From assembly GCA_015501595.1 (NCBI GenBank), contig JADNRX010000135.1, forward strand, positions 62,001-126,000: DNA of 64,000 bases, written 5' to 3'. The position numbers were made by a program, and so were the translations under genes. The notes beneath the pieces were generated by a model, which worked only from the letters and a program-made list of their open reading frames with translations, had not been told where the DNA came from and ran no database searches. Every line of letters starts with the position of its first letter. Position 1 is the first letter of the stretch. This document shows positions 35,106 to 52,770 of the stretch, in pieces. This stretch comes from Hymenopellis radicata. Lineage: Eukaryota; Basidiomycota; Agaricomycetes; Agaricales; Physalacriaceae.

Positions 35106-35356
35106 TGTAGACGTAGACGTCAGTCTGTGCGTCGAATATGTATGTGCGAGGTATAGTCAGTTGCGATAGGAGCTGGTCGAAGCCGTAAGTCGAGTGATCA
35201 GATGTGAAATGTAGAGTACGTCTCGAATGAATATGCTCTGCTCCTTCTTGCACTCCGTGCTCTGAGCGTCAAGCGAAATCAAGGCGTAAGAGAATGAGAT
35301 TCTGACTGTGGTGGTAAGAAGGTAAGGTAGGTATGGGTCTAAGCCTACAGTAACTA
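35106..35356 (-). repeat. Left LTR, outer part (split)
   Basis: Begins TGTAGACGTAGACGTCAG on the plus strand and matches 52287-52537 of the right LTR. The remaining 233 bp lie at 41449-41681, ending CACTACTACA. Together with one copy of the 9-bp duplication they make exactly the 484 bp of the intact right LTR, confirming that the inserted element removed nothing. Confidence 0.9.
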
Positions 35357-35469
35357 TAGTCTTATGGTAATCGCGCCCCCTTTGGCAGGTGAGCGGTTGA
35401 TTACGCAATCACCCAATTAGGCAGTTCACTTTTTTCCTTCTACTACGACGACCTCGACGCGTCCGCGCC

Positions 35470-38400
35470 ATGTCTGCGCCTAACGACGCGTCGGCGTTTG
35501 TCCAATATGATCCAAATATCCCTAAAAAGTCGAAACCACGCAGAAATTGGGCTTCTCCGCCATTGCCAGTGCCTACAATTGCCCCCATTCCTTCTAATGC
35601 TGCCGAATATCGACTCTCACCTTCCGATACTCCACTATCCCCCCTTCAAATGAACACAAACACTCCCCTAAACAACTTTTTCGAGCCCTTAGGGTCGCCA
35701 TACTCCCCCACCACCTCGCTTAGCAGCACTCTTCGGCAGCTTCATCTCAGCGCCCAGGACTCTCCCGAGCTTTTTAAGCCTTCGCCCCGGCTTTCAAAAT
35801 GGGACCACGTCACGGCGGTGTTGACCTGCATTTCTGAGCACTTTCCGGCATTTGGAGACTTCGCCGAAGCGTTTACTGAGAATATTCCCCGCGGCGATGT
35901 TGATCCACGTTCCGAGATGCATATTAAAATGCTCTCTTCATGGTTAGGCGGTCGTAACCGTTTCGGACCGGTGGACCTCACGCAGGCGATGTATCGCAAT
36001 CGTCTCAGCGTCCCTCGGTACAATAGCGTCCATGCTGACGAGCTCGCCTATGCCTTTGATGCTGAGCGCACCCTTTCCGATATCCACTTTGCGCGCATCG
36101 GTCTCTCGATCTGGGCAACCCAACTGGTTGGCAAGCGATGTGCAGCGGAGGTTGGGAAGCTGGGCAAGGAGGACTCTAACCACCCAGAACTCCGGGTGCA
36201 TTTACGGGCATCTGCGAACCAACGCATGAAGGACAGCCGGACTCTCGTGAACGAGAACGATATTTTCGCGTTCAGCATGCAGCGTACGGCCGGAGTCTTG
36301 AAGAAGAGGGCCTGTGCAACGTGGTATTTGACTGAGTGTATGGCTGCAACACGAGTAAATGGTGAAGTCGTTGTGCGCGACAAGCGACCGCATCCATTGG
36401 TATGTATATTATTGACTGATGCTACCCGTATTTGATTTCTTTCTCAGATACAAGCCGCCTCCATTAGTGCATTCGCTCTTTGTCGCAATAAATCTGCTAA
36501 TGGTTACCTTGCTTTGCCAATCGCTGTCTGGCTCTTTTCGTGCAAGGCACATTCCGATATCAAACGTGTATTTTCGCGACTTGGACTTGCTGTCGATGAT
36601 AAGACCGCGCGTCGTGCTCTCAATGCCCTGGGCGAGGCGCGATTGGCCGCTCTGCGGCGTGCGACAGCGGAGGCGCTCGAAAAGAAGGAACCCTACTGCC
36701 GCAAGGTGCTGGACAACATTCAGCAGTATCAACTTGTGCACGAGCATAACATCGGCAAGAAGAGTATGCTTATTACGGGTACCGCGGCAACGGCTATTCG
36801 TCTTGATGACTGCGAGCCCGGAGCCTTCAACCTTGACGACTACCACGATCGTCTTGTTCGAAATGAACGCTCTACGCTGACGACTGAGGGTCTTTTCCAA
36901 GATGTTGACTTTGAACATCTTCATCGTGTCATGTGTCTTCACGTTGTTCGCATGCTTTGCGAACATGTTCCTTCCCTTGATCCCCTCCGTCCCCGCATTT
37001 CCGAACGCTTTCGCTCTGATCCCATCCAGAAACACCGTATGCGGGAAGGACGCAAGTCGTACGTTGTACCGCTTGGAGCGAACAGTCATTACGAGATGGA
37101 GGCGCATGGCATGAAAGAGGCACAGAAGGACTTCGATACTCAGGTTGGCTACAAGCCTGATGAGGTCGTCAAAGCGAACATCCTTATCTGGGATGGGGGT
37201 GATGGCGGTTCATTTCTCTCTGGTGGTAACGTCAAGCGCCATCTCTTCCCACAGATGGTGCAGCTAGACGTGTATTACTCCTTCGTCAACCGTCTTTGGA
37301 CCACGGACATTTGGCACGTCAAGGCTAACATGCTCAATGTTATGGCCGTCAACTATTATGGGCCAAAGACTACAAAAGACCCTTCGGCATTATCTCGCTC
37401 CGCCGCCGCCGCCAATCTGTACGTTCCTACCAAGCCAAGTGCCTGTAACTTCTATCCCGCCTCGAGAGCCATGCGCACGATCTGCGAAGCCCAAGTTCTC
37501 GATATTTGGGATCTTCACCTTACGGAACATACAGGGCTTCTACCGCACTTCGAAGAGTTAGCGGCGCGTGATGCACTTCCCAACCTTGATGAGCTCTTGG
37601 AGCACGCGGATACTCTCGTTACTCGTTATATGTCTGCTAGCGGATATCGCACCGCACTATCCTCATCCCGACTTGAACGTGCGCCGGCTATTCACCGCTT
37701 TCCAATTGGACGTTCATGGGTAGCTCAGGCTGAGCCATCTGAGCCGGATCCATCCACAGATAATCCTGGGTCTTCCACTGCAGAGAATATGAGTGCAGGT
37801 GAAGCAACCACGGCTAGCGCTGAGGAGGAAACGTCAGGTACCAAGGCGCATGTCGAGGCCGACAACTTCTCAGGCGACCGTGTCTTAGCAAACTCCATTC
37901 TCTTTCGTCGTGACTTCCTGTGGTGGATTGAGCTTTCGTATGCCGTTTCTGATGGTGATATCGGACGTGTTATGGAGATTATGAAGGTCTGTTATCAGCT
38001 CCGCACGTTCGGAGTCGCGCTTATCAGTATCTTACATAGATCTGGATTTTTATGTTTGCCGGTGCTTCGAAACAAAACTATACGTCTATCCTTCTCGAAT
38101 TATACTGTCTCTTCCGTTACGAGGCCTCGGAAAAGCTGAAGGATGGGATTTGGAATAACTGGCTTGTTAATATCTCGGGAGAGTTGGGTAAATGGATTGA
38201 GGACGGATTGCTCCAAGAGCACTATAATAAGTGGCTGGAGGATATGATTGCGAAACACGGCGGGACCTTCGACGACTTGTTCTTCCGAACAACAATCTCT
38301 CCCAACGTCGACTTTTTCCTACGTCTCAAGGAAGAGCTCGAGTCAGCATTCGAACTGTGTAGTCGAGGCAAGACACATACGTCGTCCAGCCTTTCTGATG

Positions 38401-38870
38401 CAAATCGGATGCTCATGGCAATGTATCGCGAGGATCAGCTTAGCTACTTTCGACGTCGACGAAGCATGGGATTCGCCGCTCATGAACTTATCAACAGAGG
38501 ATATCAGACGATGGATAACTACAAAATGCCTGAATTTCAAGCTAAGTCTACGAAACATGCTAAACTACTTGATCTCTTCCGCAAGCTACGTGCTGCCGAA
38601 TCTACACCGTCGCCATCAGATCTCAGCGCATTGGAAGGGATTATTTCAGGAGGTACAGACTTGGACTTCGACTGCTCGGAAGAGATGTATGAGAGTGTTC
38701 GTGAACGGACTGGACCTGAAGCATCATCTTGGCAGTTTCATATGGATGGAGAGGATTTGGGTATCGATGATGGTGACGATGGGTCTGATGGGCCGGATGA
38801 GGGAGACGGTAACGATCCTGATGTTGATGTTGATGAATGGTCTGAAGAGAATGATGCATTAGATAGTTAA
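35470..38870 (+). CDS. DUF6589-like protein (candidate transposase)
   Basis: Three exons, 35470-36399, 36448-37986 and 38040-38870, splice in phase to 1099 residues; introns are 48 and 53 nt with GTATGT and GTCTGT donors. Residues 1-130 are Pro/Ser-rich and low complexity. The middle holds CRNKSANGYLALPIAVWLFS, then an NILIWDGGDGGSFLSGGN acidic/Gly segment, LFPQMVQLDVYYSFVNRLWT and DIWHVKANMLNVMAVNYYGP. The end of exon 2 and start of exon 3 read VSDGDIGRVMEIMK then IWIFMFAGASKQNY, LLELYCLFRYEASEKLKDG and NNWLVNISG, the run I associate with DUF6589 proteins of mushrooms. Conserved Asp in GDGG-type and SDGDIGR motifs, plus Glu, could form a DDE-like site (inference). The C-terminus is an Asp/Glu/Gly tail. 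Its stop lies 8 bp from that of the helicase. Confidence 0.75.
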
Positions 38871-38878
38871 CGGTAATT

Positions 38879-41234
38879 TCATTCTTCATACCATGCTCTT
38901 TCGCGTGCTCGTCTGTTGTTAGTTCTCTTGGGTCCATAATCAGCCATGATATCCTTTACTGTTGCTGTAGTCTGTTGACGTGGACGAACTGTGCGAACAG
39001 GTGGTTGGTTCGTGAGATCCTCCAGAACACGCTTAGAGCGACGCGGTGCTATCGGGACCGAAGGTGTCGACTCAGAGGGAGCGATAGAATCCATTTCCAT
39101 GGCGTGTTCATCACCCATGTCATCCTCTCCACCAGCTGCCTCTGCCTCTTCTGATTCTTCTGATTCCTCTGAATCCTCTTCTTCAACATCCGATTCCGCC
39201 TCATCAGATTCTGATGCAGAGCTTTCCTCCCATGGCTGTCGCTTCTTTGCCTGTTTTCGTGGGCGAGCGCGTGTGTTTCCTGATGCCTGTATCCTTGGCC
39301 GCGCTTTGGGACGTGCACTGTTGATGGTATATTGAATATCGAGGATCAGCGCGAAGAGTTTGTCCTTCCACGTAACACGGAAGCGCCAGTCGAAGTCATT
39401 TAGAAGAGCGTCGAGTGTTTCGACTGTAACAAGATGGAGAATTTGATCCGTGAGTTTCGTCTGAAGAGAAAGCGGGAAGAATGAAGAATCTGGCCGGTTC
39501 GCATTAGCAGGTTCGTACAACTCGGTTTCCAAGATTTCATGTCCGAATTGAGCAAGCTTCTCGACTACAATTGGTCTCTCCTTCTTCTTCAGCTTCAGTA
39601 CGGCAGGAACTAATGGAGTAGTCGTTTTGGAGACTGGAGTAAGGAATGGCGGATGAACAGACTCTCGATCAGGGAATGTGACTGAGATCCCTTCTCTTTT
39701 AGCACAGAGCGAGCAGGGCAGAGGTCGATTCGCTTCGATACAGGTAAGAGATGTGGTCTCGATTGGTGAATTTTGCCAGCGACGGTTTTTAGCAGCAACT
39801 AGGCAGATCGTTTCCGTAAGAACTTCCGCTTTGGCGGGATCCATGAATTCTACTTTCTTTTTCTTGTTCTTTCGACCTGTCGCGGGAGTCGGCGTCATCG
39901 TTGTCACAGTCGACGCTCCAAGACCTAGCAATTGCGTTAGGTTTCTTAATGATAGTAGTACAGTCACAAATTCACATACTAGCTAAGTATTTAGCAGCAT
40001 TCTTGATGTCGCTTTTCTGTACAAGAACGACGGCCTTTCCTGTAGCATCCGGGGGACGTGATGCTCGACCGGCTTGCTGTTCGGTCTGGGACAGCGTTGA
40101 AGGCATGCCGAGGGAAATGCTATCGTCGAGAGAAGGAATATGTACACCGTTTGCTAGCGCTATCGTTGCAAGGACTATTTGTAGTCTCGGATCTGTTTTC
40201 GCAAGAGAAAGTGTTTCGAGATTGAACTCGGCTTCGCAGAGGGCAGTGTACGGGCGCACGCGCTGGGCATGATTGACGCCCGGAGGTTCCATAGAGAATA
40301 GATAAAGATAGAGCTTTGTAACAATTTCGAGTGTCGGAGCGTAGATAACGACTTTGCGTCCTGTGTTGAGGTACGGAAGCAGCTGCGGAAACGAATTGTT
40401 GTTGATTCCGTGCTCTAGTGGCTCGATAATGAATTGAAGGTCCTGTCGCTCGTTACTGTATCGAAAGAGTGTGAAACTGCCAGCACGAAAACCGAGAATT
40501 TTGCAAAGAGCTGTTGTTGGTGCACCAGGCTCGAGCGTCGCAGAGATGCTGAAAACAGGAACATGGGAAGGGAGTCGTCCACGTAGAAAGGTGCCGATGT
40601 TGTTGTACGCGTCACGGAAAGTCGGACCCCATTCTCCCGCAACATGACCTTCCTCAAGACAAGCATAAATCAGATTCGACTGAAAGACCGTGTCATCCAG
40701 GATTTTGCGCCAGGCAGGAGCGTGCAAGTGCTCAGGATCGATACAGATAACTTGAAAGAGAGTGCAGCAAGTGATCTCCTCAATGAGATTTCGGCGGCTA
40801 ATGTTTGCGCGCGAGATTGTCTGGCGGTCGTATGCAAGGGCAGTGATACCGTGTTCAGCAAGGGTTAGGACCTAAGGATAGACATCATTTAGTAACTAGA
40901 TAGTACAAGCAGAGTATATACTCACAATATCTCCTGCGAGGCCCTTTGTTGGTGTGATAACCAATCCCACGGGGTGCTTCCGGACACGAAAATTTGAATA
41001 GTCTTCTGGATGTCGGCTGACTTCTTCATGGCAAAGGATGGGAACTGTGAAGAGTGCTGACTTTCCGTCTCCTGTCGCAGTGCACAAAAGGACATCCTTC
41101 CCGTCGAGAATCAACAATGTTGGCTCTTCCTGCCGCTCATGCAACCCATCCGTCCAGTCGGGTATTCGCTTGACGACGATACGTTTGACAGCTGCCTTGC
41201 CCTCTGGCGAGTTCCAGGAGACGTATGCCGGCAT
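38879..41234 (-). CDS. RecQ-like DEAD/H helicase of the transposon
   Basis: Exons 41234-40926, 40871-39980 and 39924-38879 splice in phase to 748 residues (introns 54 and 55 nt). Helicase motifs in order: motif I TATGDGKSALFTVPIL, Ia LVITPTKGLAGDIV, motif II position LIYACLEEGHVAGEWG, motif III FSISATLEPGAPT, then VVIYAPTLEIV in the second RecA domain, IVLATIALANGVHIPSL and motif VI QTEQQAGRASRPPD. Motif II reads EEGH where RecQ has DEAH/DEGH (Asp to Glu, codon GAG), which might lower ATPase activity. The C-terminal ~350 residues are unique: two Cys pairs, basic KNKKKK and RPRKQAKKRQPWEESS patches and a long Glu/Asp/Ser stretch. RQC and HRDC domains are not evident. It converges on the DUF6589-like gene. 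Confidence 0.85.
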
Positions 41235-41448
41235 TTTGGGCTGAGAGACGCGAAAATGAACGAAAAACAGCGGCTATATTGCAGGCGATCGTGGTGGTAG
41301 GGATATAGACGCGTGTTCCTAATTGGGCGATTGCGTAATCAACCGCTCACCTGCCAAAGGGGGCGCGATCTCCCACAGACTACATACCAGTACTTACTCG
41401 CTTCGTCACTGGTATCGTCTGTATGTTTATAAGAGACTACAGTAACTA

Positions 41449-41681
41449 GGCCCATGGTCTAGAGGGTGAAGAGTGGTGTGATCCTAGGAATTAAATAAGT
41501 GGTGTGATATAGGTCTGGACTAAGCCAGAGGAATGGAGACTGAGGTGGGCTGATCTGTGAGTAAAAGCAAGTAGGTAAGCATAAAGTAAAGGCAGAGAGT
41601 CAAATCCCAAGTCGAGGAACTGTCACCGGTGAATGAACCCAATCCGACTCTGCGACGAGCGCACTAAGGTGCACTACTACA
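41449..41681 (-). repeat. Left LTR, inner part
   Basis: Continues the split left LTR after the inserted transposon and matches 52538-52770. It ends CACTACTACA, so on the element's own strand the LTR starts TGTAGTAGTG and shows the TG..CA ends usual for LTRs. Confidence 0.9.
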
Positions 41682-41716
41682 GTGACGGAAACAAGATAGA
41701 CGTCGCCCCCGACGTC

Positions 41717-42778
41717 TCAATGTCCATGCAGTCCATCATCATGGCCACAGTGATCGCACCGTGCGTAGCGGCCGTGATGGTGGTTCAAGACGTCTATCAT
41801 CATCCTTTTCGATCGACGCTCCGCATCAATGAAGAACATGTTCGTCTCCTCAGAGACAAGCTCGGCGAAGCCAGTGATGCCATATGAGACTGGGAGATAT
41901 GTATCCTTCTTCCTATCCATCAACTTCTGTGCAGCAGCCTCGAAACCATTGGGATCTTGGCATATGAGGCGGCCTGTATCCCTATGGTAAAGTGGGAAGG
42001 TTGAGTAGTCGAGGGAGTAGTAGTCGATGCCAGCAGGTGGCTGGATGTGGTTGTTGTCAAAGTCAACGACATCCACAATCTGCGCACGGATGTCCGAGAT
42101 GTACGTAGAGTTCCAAGGATAGAACAATGCTTCATCCAGCATGAAACGCTCGGGGTAGTAATGAAGGAAACGACCGATGGCCCGCAACTCGAGCCAGGTG
42201 AGGTTGTCATCCCGGACGTGCACATCGGGATTACCACGAATGCAAAGTTGGCGGGTAAATGTGCCGGGTTGTTGGCAGATGAAGCGATAGGTGGATACGA
42301 GAGCGGTCTGCAGAGCGTGGTTGTAGTGGTGACGAGGCTTGGGAACATGGAAGCTGGGTTTGAAATCGGGTGTGCAGGTGTCAGTGACAACCTGGAAGCC
42401 ATCGCCGTCAAGCTTGTTGGAGTAGACGAACCTATATGCGTCACGCTCGGATTTGGTGACACAGGCCTCGTTCTCTTGATAGTGCTGGAAGACTCGAGCT
42501 GTGTGAAGATGAGCAGTATAGACTCGGCCTCCGCACTTGTAGCCTGGCAGTGGCACACCGAAGCCAATGGGGTCTGCAATGGGATGAGGAGGGTGGAGGG
42601 TATGATGATGTGGGTTTTCGAATGGATTTGGGATCTCTGTGGGCAAGTCGTCGTCTCCAGGCTCGGAAGCAGCCATGGGTACGTCCACTGGTACAAGTTC
42701 GAACTTCGGAAAAGCAGGAACAGGCGGGTTATCGAGAGGATAAGGAGAGAAACGTCCACCATCGAAGTGGACAGACAT
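41717..42778 (-). CDS. Extra ORF of the Ty3 element, downstream of integrase
   Basis: From ATG at 42778 the frame encodes 353 residues starting MSVHFDGGRFSPYPLDNPPV and ends 35 bp before the LTR. It has Pro-rich and acidic N-terminal parts, then PLPGYKCGGRVYTAHLHTAR, YRFVYSNKLDGDGFQVV, LTWLELRAIGRFLHYYPERF and a His/Cys-rich end (HHHGRYARCDHCGHDDGLHG). The frame is open through the whole region, so it seems maintained. It occupies the place of an env-like gene, but no signal peptide or membrane segment is visible; the Cys/His end suggests a metal site. It may be a captured or accessory gene. A longer start at 43021 seems unlikely because that part is Ser/Leu low-complexity. Confidence 0.6.
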   Translation of the reverse strand: MSVHFDGGRFSPYPLDNPPVPAFPKFELVPVDVPMAASEPGDDDLPTEIPNPFENPHHHTLHPPHPIADPIGFGVPLPGYKCGGRVYTAHLHTARVFQHYQENEACVTKSERDAYRFVYSNKLDGDGFQVVTDTCTPDFKPSFHVPKPRHHYNHALQTALVSTYRFICQQPGTFTRQLCIRGNPDVHVRDDNLTWLELRAIGRFLHYYPERFMLDEALFYPWNSTYISDIRAQIVDVVDFDNNHIQPPAGIDYYSLDYSTFPLYHRDTGRLICQDPNGFEAAAQKLMDRKKDTYLPVSYGITGFAELVSEETNMFFIDAERRSKRMMIDVLNHHHGRYARCDHCGHDDGLHGH

Positions 42779-44024
42779 AATTGAAAGTGAGTGTAAGTAA
42801 AGGAAAAGGGAATGATAGGAAAATGGAAACAAGGGAGAATGCGTCGTTCTGGACGCAAAAATGGTGTGATTGAAAGTGGTGAGACTCTGCGGGCCCGAGA
42901 CAAAGTGTAGAACCTTGTGGACTCGGGTCCAGAATGATCGGGGTGGCGGGAGGCTGGAACGGGATACCGGGACAGTTGTGGACCAATGTGGGCTGCAAAA
43001 TACGCGTTCCAGACGTGTCATTAACGCCTGGAAAGCCGCGCTCGAAGTGCGTACACTTCCCGAAGTGTGGAGGCAGGATTGACTCGAGTCGGGTCCTCCA
43101 CAGCGGGAATTTTGAGTCCGGTCTTGAGTGTCTGATGGTCCGGTCGGTAATAGAACAGTCGTAGACGACGTATATTGACATGTCCTTTGAGAATCGCGCC
43201 TGAGAGTTCCCGTAGGACGAAGCTATCGTGGTCGCGCTTCTGGTGGATGATGTACGGGCCGGCGTAAGTCCATTGTCCTTTGCCGCCCTTGATCTCGTCG
43301 AGTTTTGACTCTCTGAGCCAAACGTACATTCCTTCTTCGTATCCTGAAAAGTCGAAACGGAAATGAGCGCGTTTGGCGAGATCCTCAATAGCGCGTTTGC
43401 GTGTCTGCCGGAGGGTCTCGTTCGCCTCTTTCATCTTCTCGTCCCGTCTCGAGATCTGACGCGCGCGAATTGCAATGAGCTCCTCTTCGGTACGAACAGT
43501 GTGCCAGTCGAGCGTCTGCCATGTAATCTCCGCATCGTCGAATGAGAAAACAGGGTGTTGGCCATATAGCAGGTAGTACGGGGAAAATCCGGTAGCTCTG
43601 GAGATGGTGACTCGAAGCGCGAATAGAACTGCACAAAGAAGCTTGGGCCAATTGCCCTTCGCATCGCCCGTGAGTTTGAACAGAGGGCCAGTGATCATCT
43701 GGTGGTGGCGTTCGAGGGGTGCATTTCCTTCTGGGTGATACGGAGTCGAGAGTATGACGGTGCATCGATATAATGTGGAAAGGAGATGTCGCACCTCTCC
43801 CATGAATTCGGGTCCTCCGTCGATGGTAATGACGGGTACGCATGCATATCGGCACACAATATCCTCGTAAATGAATTTGGCAACGGTCTTCGCGTTTGCG
43901 GCCTTCATTGCACGTGCCTCGGGCCAGAGAATCGTTCGTTCAATCGCCTGAATAATGTACTCGAAGCCGCCTGCTCCAGTAGGTACGTGGATCGTGTCGA
44001 GATCCCAGTGCCTAAGGAGAGGGG

Positions 44025-45237
44025 TAGTGAATAGCCCGGGTCGGAGCACCCGGTCCGGGTCACGGATGCGGGTGTGTCAGGGTCCGGGTAGGGGTCTCGG
44101 TCCGAGTACCCGCTGAAACCCGCACCACCCTTTGTTACCCGTGCTGTGATCCAGTTGGACCACATATCATAATACAATTATTATATATATATTTTAATGT
44201 AAATTATCGAATTTATTTGGGCTCAAACGAGCCCATCGTCGCCCCAAAACGACGTCGCGAACGAATTTCCTCGATCGCCGAGCTGACCGAACGTCCCGGC
44301 AACTGCCGGATAACGATCGATCAGCTAAGATCGCATCTCCTTGGCTTTCACCACCACCACTGTCGTGTTCCTTGGCCCCAGAACTTCTTCTGGGGCTTGT
44401 TTTACTTTCTTTCTCTGCTCAGCTCTGCTTTTCCCGTGCGGTTTGGCTTTGCGCCGACCGCTGCGCCCTCGGATACGTTCCGGGGTGCGTTCTGGTGCTC
44501 GTCTGCGCGACGGCACCAATTCGACGAGGATCCTACCAACCACGACGACGACGACGGATACCTGTCCTTGCGACGGCACTTCCTTGGCCTCGACCTCGAC
44601 GCGTAAGCCCTCAAATGAGGCCGCCATGGACTACTTTTTCGTGCTCTGCTCTCTCGATGAGCAGCGCGAACGCGTCAGCCTCCTCGACGGAGCCGCAACG
44701 TCTCTAGATGACGACGACGGGCTTCAAGAGGCTAGATGGGCCCCCGCGCCGTCTCGTTCTTGCCTCCAACGAGGCAATGGGTGGATTTTTTTGGGGCTGG
44801 AGGGCGTCGCGGACGCATCCAGCCCCAGCGGTGCGTATTTAGTATATTTTTTCTCTCCTTCCTCATTCACGTTGCGCAGGCTGTCCTCGCCTGCTCCGCA
44901 CCCAACATATCCTCGCACCCACCGTATCCTCGCGCTCAACGTCGCATCGCGCCCAACGTCTCCTCGTACCATCATCTCCTCCCTCGCACCACGTACTTCT
45001 GTCTTGTCCCTTCTCTGTTGTTAAACAACAGGGTGGGCTTGACTATGTATATCGTGCGCGTCGATAGCCCCCCTGCCATTGCCGGGGGGTCGTCGGCGTG
45101 CACGAACAGTGGCCAAGCACCATAACCCGACATCATTTCGGCGGGTAACCCGCACCCGCATCACGGGATAGGGTAAGTCGAGGGTACGGGTAGGGGTCCA
45201 AGATGAAATACCCGCGGGCAACCCGCGCTACTCACTA
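44025..45237. mobile_element. Non-autonomous hAT element, family B
   Basis: The ends TAGTGAATAGCCCGGGT and (inverted) TAGTGAGTAGCGCGGGT are flanked by identical 8-bp duplications GAGAGGGG (44017-44024 and 45238-45245). Outer 150 bp are packed with ACCCG and CGGGT repeats. Its interior, with CCTCGATCGCCGAGCTGACC and AACGTCCCGGCAACTGCCGG, is shared in inverse with the element at 61197, whose ends differ. The frame at 44341-45024 is not a transposase. It sits in the integrase gene. Confidence 0.92.
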
Positions 45238-47658
45238 GAGAGGGGCCAGCCACGATTCGTTGTAGGGAAGAACGGGCTTACGTTGGATGGATTTCTGACA
45301 TTCGATGCAGGATCGAATGAAATATGACACGTCGTCGTAAAGATTCGGCCAGTAGAAGCGATCTGCCAACAATCGATATGTGGCGTCGCGTCCGCGATGT
45401 CCTGTCTGCAAATGTGCTTCCATCATCAGATCACGACGTTTCGCGATGTCCTCGATAACGAGACGCGGCATCTTCTCGTCGGAACGTTTGGCCATCAGCC
45501 AGAGACGATCCTCTGCCAGTATGTATCTCCTGGACCTCTTGAGGAACGCGAGTTTTGTCTTGTCCGTCTTGCATTTCAGCGGGTATGTTCCTTCATGAAG
45601 GAAAAGTCGGAGCTCCTGCCAGAACAGTCCATCATCCTGGTCTCGCGTACCGTGTTTGTGTCCGGCTGCGTTTGCGAGCTCGGATTGTCCAAGGGGACGC
45701 AAGTCCGTTATCTCTGTAATCGCGTCTGTAAACAGCGTGGAAAATTCTTCTCCAGCTAAGGAGACAGTAGCAGAGAATTGTCTGGTGGATTTTCGATCAA
45801 AGAACTCTGGAAGAGGTCTGGAAGTGGAAACGTCTGTGTTGGCTAGAGCAGCACAATGGAACAGAGAGTACGCGTCGTCTTGCAGAAACGAGTCGGCGTG
45901 GTCGCCGTAACGGTCGTGTGTGTCAATCTGGAGACCAACAGAGGTGTGGAAAACAGGTATATTCGCCGCCATGGCGGCTCGAGTCAAGAACGGATTAGAC
46001 GCCCGTATTCGAAGCGCGCTAAGCGCGAACCGAACAACGTGGGTCAGCGTGATTTCGTATATTGATGCCGAGTTGTCTGATCCGTTCCCGTCTTCGTCTT
46101 CCGTGTTCTTGCCGCCATCGTCTGTCCTCGACAGCATGCACTCATCATCGACATCAGGCTTGATCTGGCCATCGTTCTGGACGTCTTGAGGCTCGGGAGT
46201 GCGCGTACTGCGCGGATTTGATGCCACCATCTCGGCATCTTTCTCCTCCTCTGGTTCTCTCCTTCTCTTCTGCTGCTTGCTCCTGCGGGAATTGGATACT
46301 TCTGGACGCTGGAAGATGATATCGGGATCATCCCGGAATGGTGAGTCGTGTTCTTGTGGCTCTGGGTTGATGTTGATCTCGGCTGCCATAGTTCCTTGGC
46401 TGCTCTTGTTCCCATCTCTCGGTTGCGCGTTCTGGATGGATTCTGTGCGCGTTCCGGATGAACGTCGTTCCAAGATGATGTCGGGAATGCCTGGATGGCG
46501 CTGCTCGGTCCTTTCGTCCTTGCAGACGTGCATCTTTGCATTGCGATACTCGTCTCGGTCGACGCGCGTCCCGTATGCTAAGTCGTACGCGTCGAGGAAT
46601 GCTTCTGCATCGTCTGCTGGGTTACTGTGGCCAGTATCGATTTCTGGAGCTCGAGATAACGCGTCTTCCATCTTGAACGCGGTCGCAGGTACGTGTTTCG
46701 TTTCGAAATCAAATAATTGAATCCAACAAACCCATCGCAGCATTGGCGCATTGGGGACATCGTCGGGTCGTCGTAGCATCGCGGCCAACGATATAGCATC
46801 GTGTTCCAGGCGGAAATATACGCCCCACACACGGTGACGAAGGGCTTTCAAGGCTATGAACACTCCGAACACCTCAGTCTTCGGCTGCCCATAGTTTTGC
46901 TGTGATTTAGCGAACGTACAGGATCCGTACAACGTTGGATGCTTTTCTTCGTCGGTGATCTGGTAAAGGACCCATCCGGAGCCCATCCAACTGGAGTCGA
47001 CGCCCAGCACGATGAGTCCGTCATCCGAAGTACGTGGCGGTCGATTTATCAACTTCGCGCGGTCGTAGTCCATTCGGGCTAACACAGGAGCCGTTGTAAC
47101 TCGTTTCTTGAGTACTTCGACTGCGTCTTCGCCTGCGTCGGTCATCTGGAACTCTTCCTCTGACTTGATAAGCAACACGGTGAGTGGCTTCGTGATCATC
47201 GCGTAGTTTTTGATCCATCGACGAGCACCTCCTGCTAGGCCAAGGAACATCCGTACTTCGCCCACGGATATGGGTATAGGCCATTTGAGGATTTTCTCAA
47301 CGAGTTCGGGCCCGAGGATCCAGCCTTCGTAGGAGACGACGGATCCAACGATTGTGAGCTTGAATATGGCAAGTATGGTCTTGTATCCGGAGATGGTGAT
47401 CCCCGCCGCCTCAAGAGCAGAGAAGAATGCGTCTAGACGAGGTATGAACTCCCATATGAATCGTCTGAACTGCTCCTCTTTGTCAACAGTCTCGTTGTTG
47501 TAACGCGATAGTGGCCCACGGATGCCGCAGTCATCCATGAAGTTGTCGCCCCATTGTTTGACTTTCACAGGTTTCAGAGCGTGGTCCGTTCATCGACAGA
47601 ACTCTTGTACAGAGTTTGTACACCCTTGAACGAGAGTGCACGATTGCACCGGATGATC

Positions 47659-48804
47659 TAGAGACCTCAACGAGTCCGACGCGAGTCAGACTCGCGACTC
47701 GTGACGCGAGTACTCACATAAAAAGAAGTCCAGTTCAGACTCGCGTCAGACTCGACTCGCAATGACTCACGAGTCATCGCGAGTCCACTCGCGAGTACTC
47801 ACCATGAGTCCGAGTCATCTCGGATACTCACGAGTACTCGCGAGTCCATACACCCCCAAGCATTCATGCGCAGCGAGCATCCCCGGGCAATGGCACGGGG
47901 ACAGTCAGCTGGGCATGAGGGTATGGTGGGGGTGATGGTGGAAGGACGGTGGTGGTGGTGGAAGGATAGTGGTGGTGGAGGAAGGTGGTGGTGGAGGATG
48001 GTGGTGGTGGTGGTCGACTCCGAACGACTCGTCGTCGCATCCATCTCGCATCATCCGCCTCATCGCATCACATCCCCCTCCTCATCACATCATCATCATC
48101 ATCGTGCCGTCGTCGTCGTCGTCCTCATCCATCATCGGCGCCGCGATCCAGTGACTGAATCGTGTACTGCCCGTTTGCGGGGCTTACGCGTGCTGGAGAC
48201 GACTTTTAAGTCGTCTCCATCGACGCCGACTCAAAGTCGAGCGCCGCTCGTGTCGACGCCGACTTGAAGTCGAGCGGTGATAGTGTCGTTGCCGACTTGA
48301 AGTCGAGCAACGGGTCGTGTTCCAGCTCTGCTACTGGCGCAGAGCCAGCAGCAGCGGGTCCGGCACAAAGCCGAGGCCAAAAACACACCCTACAGCTGGC
48401 TGACAATCGTCAGCGCAGCGGGAGCGACAATCGTCACTCCCTGGGTGTTGGCGGTGTTCGTGGTGGTGGTTGAGAAGAGAGTAATACCACTCGATCAGAC
48501 GCTGACGCGTCGCTTCGGGACTCGGCCCGGATCGCCGGATCGAGCAGGATAATCGCGCACGTCTCGTTCTCGAGACGTTGCGGACCATTTGCTCTGCAAA
48601 AAATTGGTAAATTTAGTTTAAATATATATCTAAATATTTGCGAGTCATCGTGTGATGACTCGCGGTCTGAAAATGGATACTCAGACTCGTGCTCGGACTC
48701 GCGAGTATGTGACTCGCGAGTCACACGAGTGCGAACACCGACGTGCCCGAGGCGAGTCGAGTCACCAGATGACTCGGTGACTCGGTGACTCGTTGAGGTC
48801 TCTA
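47659..48804. mobile_element. Non-autonomous hAT element, family A (copy 2)
   Basis: Same termini as 4818-5951 (TAGAGACCTCAACGAGTC), flanked by GGATGATC duplications at 47651-47658 and 48805-48812. Ends have arrays of ACTCGCGAGT-type palindromes; the interior has GGTGGTGGTGG runs, shared text GGCACAAAGCCGAGGCC, and the CCCCGGGCAATGGCACGGGG near-palindrome. No transposase. It splits the RT domain of the Ty3 element. Confidence 0.93.
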
Positions 48805-49777
48805 GGATGATCCAATGCGTGACATGTGGTGAGTGGTCGGGAAATCTTTGCAAGACGACAGGCATCGTAGCCTGAAAACATGTCTCCGATGCAGTAAACT
48901 GAATATCCCACATAGGATTCAGCAAACTCGTTGATGTTCGGGGGAAGTGAGGCATCTCGAACTGTGACTGCGTTGAGCTCTTCGACATTGATAACCAAAC
49001 GGACTGGTGGACTCGAGCCGGGTTTCTTCGCAACCGGAAATATTACAGATCGATAGCTGGCCACGGATGGCTCAAACTTGCCAGCCTGTTCGAGCCGTCG
49101 GATTTCGTCTCTAACGTGATCGCGGAGCGCAATAGGAATGAAGATTGGTGGTCTCTGCCACGGGGTGTGTTCGATAACGGGGATCTCGTAGTCGGGGTAG
49201 TATTCTGGGCTGAACTCGCCCTTCTCGGAATAATCGAATGCAAAGGCATTTGGGTGCAGCATCACCACGTAAGCCATTGCGCGCATCTCTTTCGGAGTGA
49301 GGGTATCTGGAGGAATCTTGGAAAGCAACAAGTCCAGCCGCTCACGCGTGATGCGGCCAGAGAAATCAAGGGAATCAATAGGAGGTGGATCAAGTGGAAT
49401 GGGATTTGGGGGATGTTCGGGTATGTCTTTGAAGACTTGTGCAGCTGGATCGGGCATATAGGATGGTACTGGTCTGTACTTCCGTGCAACGGGTTTGAAA
49501 TGACGTCCTGTCTTCTTCGGTCGGGGTTGTGAGATCTGGTTTGCCGGGTTAGCGCCATACATATGCAAGGCGCGGTCCGTCCATCGGGTAGAGGGAATGT
49601 GGTTCGGGTCTATGCCCGAGGAATGAATGTAATCGTGTATAAGAGAATCAAAATGTTCGGGTGGCTGTGTGTTCATTAAGAAATCGTGATCGGAATAGGC
49701 AGGATTGCCCATTAAACATTCGAAGGATCTTCCTAAGGTGGCTGGGTTGGAGCGGAAGACCTTCTCTTCGCACTCCT

Positions 49778-52219
49778 TCAATAAAAATCCTTGTCGTCTT
49801 CGTCCGGCACTTCCTCAATGCGAGACGTATGAGTATGTTTCGTCTTGATCTCTGTCTGATTCCGTGGATCCTCTGGTGAAGCGATGATAACCGAAAGCGT
49901 GGGTGCATAAGACTGGTCTCCATTCTTCCAAAGCAGAAGCTGAACCTCTCCAGTTCTCGAGTAGTTGATCCGAGCCGTGTAGTAATGGAGGAATGGCTGT
50001 CCAAGGATCAGGTCATATGAAGTCCCGATGTTCTCCATCCTCGAAACGAACAGGTGATGTGTGAAGTCGTGTGAGCCGATAACGAGAGGTGCATCCAAGC
50101 AACATCCAAGCAATCTCTCTGCATCTCCATGAATTCCTTTGAGTGACCAATTCGCGCCAGCGAAATCCAAAGCAAGTCCACTCTTGTTCGCAATCCGTTG
50201 ACCTGTGATGTTCAACTCTGATCCTGTATCAATCATAGCCCGATAGGAAACTCCGTTGATCTTGACGTTCACGATTCCGGTAACCATTGCAAAGAACGGT
50301 TTATCGATAACTGCAATAGCACTCGTGTGGTATCGGATGAATTCCTCCACCTCCTCGACATTGTCTGCACCGCACTCCAAGGTCATACCCTGGAATGGGT
50401 TATTCCCTTCTGCCTTTGTCGCATAGACGGTGTCGACTTGCTCCACAAAGTCGCTATACTCTGCTGCTCGGTTGGTGTACTCGCGTCGGGACTTGGTGGC
50501 ATCGTTAACCGATTGACGTAGTGCAGGACTCATTCCTACGAGATCCTTGACAGAGATGGTGATCTGGTTGTCCATAACCCTCTGATAAACCGATTTGACG
50601 TCGACGTTCTCTTGGATATCAGACGTGAAGCGCCAGGCGGGAGGCTTTGCAGCCTTCGAGTTCGTATCATCCTTCATTGCAACGTCCGGCTTGTCTCGTG
50701 ATGGCTGAGAGGCTTTCCATCCTTCCTCTCTGTTGATAGGATTCGGTGGAGGCGTGATGTTCATCGGCTTCGGCGCAGGCGGTTTGACAACTCGTGCAGG
50801 AGGAATAACTGGAGTAGTACCCTCCCAATGCTTTCCTTTTCCATCAGATGCCTGGGTAGGATTGTAGCGATTGTCCTTCGTTTGAGATCGAGTAGCAGGG
50901 TCTGACATGTGCGGCGTCAACGTGGCAACTCCGAAGATTCCTCTACCCAACTGCAGAACCTGTCCACCATTGTCAAAATAGGCACCAAGGTTGCTGGTGG
51001 AGGCACTTGTAGAGGGCTGAGAAGGCGTTATCCTTGTCGTAGGCGGAGCAGCTGTCTGCTGGCGCAAGTATCCAGCCAAACCTCCAACTGTGTTTCTGGG
51101 CACCATTGGAAGATCAGCACCATTCGGGAGCGTGTATCGATTGCCGTTCATCTGCACAAGTCCTTCCTGAATCAAAGGAAGCATAGCTGGGCAACGATGT
51201 GGACTTGGAGGATGGGTATTCGTGTACTCTCCACAGATCCAGCACCGACGAGTGGCAGGAGTGAAGCGTGAGTCGCTCTGGTGTTCGTTCTTGAGCTCTG
51301 CCAGACTAAGCTGCATCTTGCGCATCGCTTCTGTCAAATCCTCGATCTGTGAAGACGTGGCCTGGGGTTTTGCTGATGGACCAGGAGTAGGAGGACGAGG
51401 AGCTGGAGTGATCTCCTCTGTAACACGATTCCCATCGTCATCAAAGCGCAACTCCTTGTCTTTAGCAGGCTTGGACTTCCACTCTTCGTACAGAATGCTG
51501 TCCGAATCGAAGCGTGCCTTCAACAGCTTCACAACGGCCATAACCTTGGGTGGAGAAGTCTTCTTTCGCTGAGCCTCCGGCAACAGGTTGTGCAGCCAGA
51601 CCTTCAGGGAAGTGGGTACACCTTCGACGAAGAAATTGTCGTACTGTGCGTCTGTGATCAACTTGTTCTTCTTCAACGGGGCAGCGTTCTTCACGAAGTC
51701 GCGATAATAGTCCGTGACTGCCTCTTCCGATGCGAAGGGAGCCTTAGCAGCGCACTGGTGAACGAAGATCTTGAACTCCTCGACAGTATACTTCTTCGGT
51801 TGATCTCGTCCTCCATAAAGCTCTTTGAGGACTTCGACGGCTTTGTCCCACGTGCGTCCTGCCTCATCCTTATCGAACTCTGGGAGGAAGCGAAGTTGCT
51901 CTTTTACTTCGTCTGATGAATAGCGGAGGATGTAGTCGACGAGGGCATCCTTGTTAGAGATGCCAGCATTGGATCCGTGACTGGATACGATGTCGAGGAA
52001 ATCATCGGTGAAACGGCCATTGTAACGAGGTGCACCAACTGTCCCGGGAATGGGCATGGGCACGAGTAATGTTGAGAAGCTCATCTGGGGCTGTTGTTGG
52101 GTAGCTGTCTGTAACTGGGATTGTGTTTGGGATTGGGATTGGGGATTCGGTTGTACTGGGTTTGTCGAGGAACTAGCTGGCATGGACTGCCTTGGAATGG
52201 GAAATGGCAACAAGGACAC
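49778..52219 (-). CDS. Ty3 gag-protease polyprotein
   Basis: An intact frame of 813 residues from MSLLPFPIPRQSMPASS. An N-terminal Pro/Gln/Ser stretch precedes the capsid-like region (YNGRFTDDFLDIV..SSDEVKEQLRFL..RDQPKKYTVEEFKIFVHQ, residues about 55-250). A zinc-knuckle-like CWICGEYTNTHPPSPHRC lies near residue 330, then a Pro-rich linker. The retropepsin site is AMIDTGSELNITGQR near residue 680. The stop TGA at 49778-49780 overlaps the pol frame (TTGA), just after a run of five T, so pol may be made by -1 frameshift or by reinitiation. The protein assembles particles and cleaves the polyproteins in relatives. Confidence 0.9.
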   Translation of the reverse strand: MSLLPFPIPRQSMPASSSTNPVQPNPQSQSQTQSQLQTATQQQPQMSFSTLLVPMPIPGTVGAPRYNGRFTDDFLDIVSSHGSNAGISNKDALVDYILRYSSDEVKEQLRFLPEFDKDEAGRTWDKAVEVLKELYGGRDQPKKYTVEEFKIFVHQCAAKAPFASEEAVTDYYRDFVKNAAPLKKNKLITDAQYDNFFVEGVPTSLKVWLHNLLPEAQRKKTSPPKVMAVVKLLKARFDSDSILYEEWKSKPAKDKELRFDDDGNRVTEEITPAPRPPTPGPSAKPQATSSQIEDLTEAMRKMQLSLAELKNEHQSDSRFTPATRRCWICGEYTNTHPPSPHRCPAMLPLIQEGLVQMNGNRYTLPNGADLPMVPRNTVGGLAGYLRQQTAAPPTTRITPSQPSTSASTSNLGAYFDNGGQVLQLGRGIFGVATLTPHMSDPATRSQTKDNRYNPTQASDGKGKHWEGTTPVIPPARVVKPPAPKPMNITPPPNPINREEGWKASQPSRDKPDVAMKDDTNSKAAKPPAWRFTSDIQENVDVKSVYQRVMDNQITISVKDLVGMSPALRQSVNDATKSRREYTNRAAEYSDFVEQVDTVYATKAEGNNPFQGMTLECGADNVEEVEEFIRYHTSAIAVIDKPFFAMVTGIVNVKINGVSYRAMIDTGSELNITGQRIANKSGLALDFAGANWSLKGIHGDAERLLGCCLDAPLVIGSHDFTHHLFVSRMENIGTSYDLILGQPFLHYYTARINYSRTGEVQLLLWKNGDQSYAPTLSVIIASPEDPRNQTEIKTKHTHTSRIEEVPDEDDKDFY

Positions 52220-52269
52220 GTGTTATCGAATGGAAACACTGGACAAGGGGCTTCTGGTTCGACTATTCC

Positions 52270-52285
52270 CTCGCGGTGGGCTCCA
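52270..52285 (-). promoter_or_regulatory. tRNA primer-binding site of the Ty3 element
   Basis: On the minus strand, one base after the 5' LTR, the sequence TGGAGCCCACCGCGAG begins with the TGG that pairs with a tRNA CCA end. The matching tRNA would end CTCGCGGTGGGCTCCA; I cannot name it without a tRNA set. Confidence 0.75.
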
Positions 52286-52286
52286 C

Positions 52287-52770
52287 TGTAGACGTAGACG
52301 TCAGTCTGTGCGTCGAATATGTATGTGCGAGGTATAGTCAGTTGCGATAGGAGCTGGTCGAAGCCGTAAGTCGAGTGATCAGATGTGAAATGTAGAGTAC
52401 GTCTCGAATGAATATGCTCTGCTCCTTCTTGCACTCCGTGCTCTGAGCGTCAAGCGAAATCAAGGCGTAAGAGAATGAGATTCTGACTGTGGTGGTAAGA
52501 AGGTAAGGTAGGTATGGGTCTAAGCCTACAGTAACTAGGCCCATGGTCTAGAGGGTGAAGAGTGGTGTGATCCTAGGAATTAAATAAGTGGTGTGATATA
52601 GGTCTGGACTAAGCCAGAGGAATGGAGACTGAGGTGGGCTGATCTGTGAGTAAAAGCAAGTAGGTAAGCATAAAGTAAAGGCAGAGAGTCAAATCCCAAG
52701 TCGAGGAACTGTCACCGGTGAATGAACCCAATCCGACTCTGCGACGAGCGCACTAAGGTGCACTACTACA
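52287..52770 (-). repeat. Right (5') LTR of the Ty3 element
   Basis: 484 bp with TG..CA ends. On the plus strand it runs from TGTAGACGTAGACGTC to GGTGCACTACTACA. It looks identical to the two pieces of the left LTR. It drives transcription on the minus strand. Confidence 0.95.

Follow-up and report, generated by a model that had tools for sequence, protein, structure and literature searches.

A mobile DUF6589 and RecQ-like gene pair in Hymenopellis radicata, most likely an AcademH transposon, with a covarying hairpin at one end

Introduction

Kojima 2020 (Mob DNA 11:15) is said to be the founding paper of AcademH, within the Academ superfamily. Here we describe a probable member of this lineage, an element carrying a DUF6589 gene and a RecQ-like helicase gene, in a 64,000-nucleotide stretch of Hymenopellis radicata (assembly GCA_015501595.1, contig JADNRX010000135.1, positions 62,001 to 126,000), the whole of which we call the window. 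Passages in print give AcademH target-site duplications of 9 or 10 base pairs (bp) and suggest a link to its helicase (PMC10045372). AcademH is recorded there from Basidiomycota, Ascomycota and Mucoromycota, and DEAD plus Helicase_C domains are named for AcademH, KolobokH or Helitron (PMC10799480); a 'RecQ Helicase in Academ' is also named (PMC3627910). The ends, duplications, empty site, gene linkage, co-inheritance and hairpin covariation reported below were all computed from sequence.

Results

The element lies within one long terminal repeat (LTR) of a retrotransposon, with the following boundaries.

35357..41439: whole element, 6,083 bp, defined by inverted repeats, duplications and empty site
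35348..35356: left target-site duplication copy, CAGTAACTA
41440..41448: right target-site duplication copy, CAGTAACTA
35357..35421, + strand: left terminal inverted repeat, TAGTCTTATGGTAATCGCG..., with similar copies elsewhere
41318..41382, - strand: right inverted repeat, subterminal copy
35106..41681, + strand: target LTR, 484 bp without the insert; partner LTR at 52287-52770

A preliminary description of the window had reported a perfect 9-bp duplication inside an LTR, and this is what we find: CAGTAACTA is identical on both sides of the element, and the interrupted LTR differs from its partner by 0 mismatches over 484 bp. The empty site (flanks joined through one CAGTAACTA copy) recurs at four further places in this genome (75.5 Mb in 1,405 contigs searched), matching at 203 of 203 bases (100%); one of the four is the partner LTR of the interrupted retrotransposon. 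The insertion target is thus an LTR retrotransposon at 35106-52770 with identical 484-bp LTRs. Because the LTR pair has 0 mismatches, the arrival of the retrotransposon and the insertion of the element both look recent, in agreement with the recent movement first proposed. The proposed 65-bp terminal inverted repeats hold in part: the two 65-nt copies exist and are 91% complementary, but only the left one is terminal. The right copy lies 57 bp inward of the right end, whose outermost part is a hairpin module (41383-41439) that the preliminary description lacked.

The same ends recur elsewhere in the genome. We tabulated 26 copies, 8 with two genes and 18 of about 500 bp, that have TAGTC termini with exact duplications directly outside them, which argues against a chance duplication in the window. 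These duplications are 9 bp long in 22 copies and 10 bp in 4, and their sequence varies. For 11 copies, both ends were first located by their motifs and the flanks compared only afterwards; exact duplications were found at 11 of 11. When the two sides were compared at 15 two-gene loci, exact duplications appeared at eight (C391, C471, C491, C763, C627, C1295, C704 and C796). Exceptions are C714 and C963, which have inverted repeats and flanks in which no duplication was found on comparison, and C958, C851 and C993, where no pair of ends was found (at C993 the right end alone is good). Two inverted neighbours, C845a and C845b (3.3-18.3 kb), have exchanged flanks: the 9 bp flanking each end is the reverse complement of the sequence at the opposite end of the other copy, a pattern that an inversion through recombination between copies would produce, as would misassembly. 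The C1295 copy (245275-261651) has been enlarged to 16.4 kb by nested insertions, including a near-perfect palindrome with 995-bp arms; C1342 has that flank too and may represent the second haplotype.

A right-end query, for which 40 of 64 candidates were scored, matched at 40 places, each time from the query's first base. Among 20 further right-end places, 13 show an exact duplication and a second end no more than about 510 bp away, and seven do not, one of them at a contig end; note that the second end was sought at these places as GACTA plus the duplication, a search that favours matches. The short copies form a gene-less family of 494-510 bp that shares both ends and the hairpin, 18 of them with exact duplications. 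Copies of about 500 bp without either gene have moved, so mobilisation in trans occurs.

Duplication length also bears on KolobokH, a fungal Kolobok lineage of DNA transposons with a RecQ helicase; a red-algal Kolobok even has its RecQ on the complementary strand (PMC9587614). In the passages in print, however, Kolobok duplications are TTAA, and the 26 copies here have 9-10 bp of varied sequence. We rejected KolobokH on this ground and regard it as extremely unlikely.

Both genes are open after splicing of two short introns each, and they face each other with 8 bp between their stop codons (38871-38878), as first described.

35470..38870, + strand: DUF6589 gene, exons 35470-36399, 36448-37986 and 38040-38870; 1,099 amino acids; probable DDE transposase
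38879..41234, - strand: RecQ-like superfamily 2 (SF2) helicase gene, exons 41234-40926, 40871-39980 and 39924-38879; 748 amino acids

The DUF6589 protein is very probably the transposase. Its Pfam match covers residues 449-936 of 1,099 (E=1.3e-103), and the predicted structure of a relative indicates an RNase H-like DDE fold with an insertion domain, whose best 13 structural matches are all DNA transposases or RAG1. Acidic residues are conserved among DUF6589 proteins, and we propose D399, D562 and E883 as the catalytic triad. The earlier suggestion that DUF6589 is the recombinase, with an RNase H-like fold to be looked for, agrees with this model. Mutator-like elements (MULEs) make duplications of about 9 bp, and the element might be a MULE that picked up a RecQ gene; yet a Pfam scan of the DUF6589 protein up to E=1 returned DUF6589 only, with no MULE domain, and Hermes scores higher in structural comparison, making this origin highly improbable. 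A search by a profile of 81 sequences, which scored 7,999 candidates, gave 36 matches; because those with an organism name are all from what we take to be mushroom-forming fungi, animal relatives lie outside its reach.

The partner protein has DEAD and Helicase_C domains. Its closest NCBIfam model is RecQ (TIGR00614, E=6.5e-20), at 71 bits, under the model cut-off of 220, and its closest solved structure is a RecQ (2.6e-8). Across up to 86 relatives, each residue of the Walker A GKS is conserved at 99%, the DExH box has E at its second position in 96% and H at its last in 98%, and Q, G, R and R of motif VI stand at 94-99%. The first DExH residue is D in 61% and E in 35% of relatives; it is E in the window copy, where the box reads EEGH (residues 176-179, positions 40644-40655).

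We find that the two genes are linked far beyond chance. The DUF6589 profile gave 88 pieces that merge into 46 loci and the RecQ-like protein 66 pieces in 35 loci, all lower bounds, in which some loci may be counted twice (C1295/C1342, possibly C349/C763 and C551/C700). A RecQ-like gene lies within 6 kb of 31 of the 46 DUF6589 loci, downstream and convergent in 31 of 31, where chance would give about 0.3 pairs (46 x 35 x 12 kb / 75.5 Mb). Fifteen DUF6589 loci are unlinked: C1295 (and C1342 by analogy) is split by insertions, C90, C212 and C1212 lie at contig ends, and ten remain without explanation. Conversely, no DUF6589 locus lies within 6 kb of 5 of the 35 RecQ loci; four of these five are short pieces of less than 250 bp. 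Three DUF6589 fragments on contig C480 (1597, 12715 and 24023), about 11 kb apart on one strand and with no RecQ match, suggest a tandem repeat.

Linkage extends to inheritance and to other species. DUF6589 and RecQ-like protein distances correlate (r=0.90, 13 loci); the genes are co-inherited. Within a protein collection (lists of 87 and 99, four proteins without an organism name omitted from each), 19 of 83 RecQ-like relatives come from a contig of the same species and equal size as that of a listed DUF6589 protein. Outside Hymenopellis the figure is 13 of 76, in 12 species, and equal-sized contigs from different species gave 0 coincidences. These searches scored only the candidates sharing most words, and an unfound partner there does not amount to absence. 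Adjoining locus tags occur in Mycena sanguinolenta (1107948/1107949) and Marasmius tenuissimus (024860/024859).

The movement of gene-less copies would also suit an element whose DUF6589 and RecQ genes are passengers, moved in trans by a transposase encoded elsewhere. We consider this very improbable given the predicted DDE fold with its conserved acidic residues, the coupled inheritance of the two genes, their same-contig pairing in 12 other species, and the ratio of nonsynonymous to synonymous substitutions (dN/dS), which indicates purifying selection. A self-contained mobile pair, as in the preliminary description, is the better account. The checks which that description had set against itself (genes mainly unlinked, ends not common to other copies, a duplication by chance) came out in its favour, apart from the exceptions given above.

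The right end of the window element carries an additional module, outside the 65-bp repeat and on the RecQ side.

41383..41439, - strand: outer right-end module of 57 bp, made up of TAGTCTCTTATAAACA and the greater part of the hairpin; observed at just one end of each copy read
41375..41422, - strand: right-end hairpin; inner stem 41408-41415 / 41384-41391, outer stem 41417-41422 / 41375-41380

We compared 32 right ends, 28 of them distinct. TAGTCTCT is invariant across the 28, in which 98.1% of cells are paired in the inner stem and 89.3% in the outer stem; slid stem alignments drop to 12-55%. Three inner-stem pairs are changed on both sides, and doubly changed cells number 14 versus 4.1 in shuffles, a count that 0 of 500 shuffles reach. 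Stem types interchange as ACAGT/ACTGT, ACAAT/ATTGT and ACACAT/ATGTGT, with length varying on both sides, and the loop is largely conserved while the stem varies. Of the five covariation measures, two give no excess over shuffles, namely pairs changed on both sides (119/500) and further pair types (382/500), and no outer-stem pair is changed on both sides. Folded as DNA, the window right end is weakly better than shuffles (z -1.76, with 11/200 at least as good); the case for the hairpin therefore rests on covariation, not energy.

The module does not keep to one gene. It lies on the RecQ side at C391, C491, C763, C471, C627, C993 and C1295 and on the DUF6589 side at C704, C796, C845a, C714 and C845b. 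Because its side differs between lineages, there has been at least one inversion of the gene pair with respect to the ends, or at least one move of the module.

Discussion

We propose that the DUF6589 protein, through the triad given above, would cut at the TAGTC ends and join these to target cuts with a stagger of 9 bp or, in some cases, 10 bp. As a dedicated partner, the RecQ-like helicase would probably open or clear end DNA, or resolve a gap or target intermediate. The hairpin module at one end is probably a structural recognition signal. More tentatively, that end may be a folded-DNA signal opened by the RecQ-like partner or read by the transposase, giving a transpososome asymmetric by structure as well as sequence; we hold this to be possible rather than probable. 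If true, the mushroom Pfam family DUF6589, now classed as of unknown function, would consist of transposases coupled to a helicase.

These results assign a probable function both to DUF6589 and to its RecQ-like partner genes in mushrooms, which public records list under generic names such as 'hypothetical protein', 'P-loop' and 'DNA 3'-5' helicase'. The element is a young copy that looks complete and whose empty site is identified; it comes with numerous short relatives and an end whose hairpin covaries. This makes it possible to test directly why a helicase is encoded by some cut-and-paste transposons.

Comparison with known systems

In structure, the closest likenesses are hAT (Hermes) and P-element transposases, the best matches of the predicted fold, which likewise have an RNase H-like core with an insertion ahead of the last E; over the aligned parts, however, sequence identity is 8-10%. 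P-element duplications are 8 bp, and neither hAT nor P-element transposons are known to have a helicase gene. Duplications of hAT are given in passages in print as 5-8 bp, usually 8, in contrast to the 9-10 bp here. We rejected membership in either group and keep the resemblance as structural. KolobokH differs further in gene arrangement: its RecQ lies downstream of the transposase domain, whereas here RecQ is a convergent second gene.

The published descriptions of AcademH consulted say nothing of a hairpin module; the comparison with AcademH is one of descriptions. The literature searched held neither a covarying hairpin end nor an identification of DUF6589 as an AcademH-type transposase, either of which the founding AcademH paper may contain. 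It named DUF6589 nowhere, and PF20231 appeared only in one unrelated optics paper. Together with the fact that the link to Academ rests on descriptions instead of sequence comparison, this leaves a small but real chance that DUF6589 is a transposase superfamily apart from Academ, the element otherwise working as described. A helicase gene with 9- or 10-bp duplications in fungi is, however, what the available passages describe as AcademH, and the novelty implied at first is not supported, helicase-encoding AcademH elements with such duplications having been published (PMC10045372; PMC3627910). Like AcademH, the window element is fungal, has a helicase beside the transposase and makes 9- or 10-bp duplications; like Academ, it has a RecQ helicase. 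Because the passages in print give AcademH these features, we file the element as a probable member of an already known lineage rather than a new kind, and infer the name AcademH for it. We are fairly confident that the window holds an autonomous DNA transposon of the cut-and-paste type with two genes, whose lineage is most likely AcademH.
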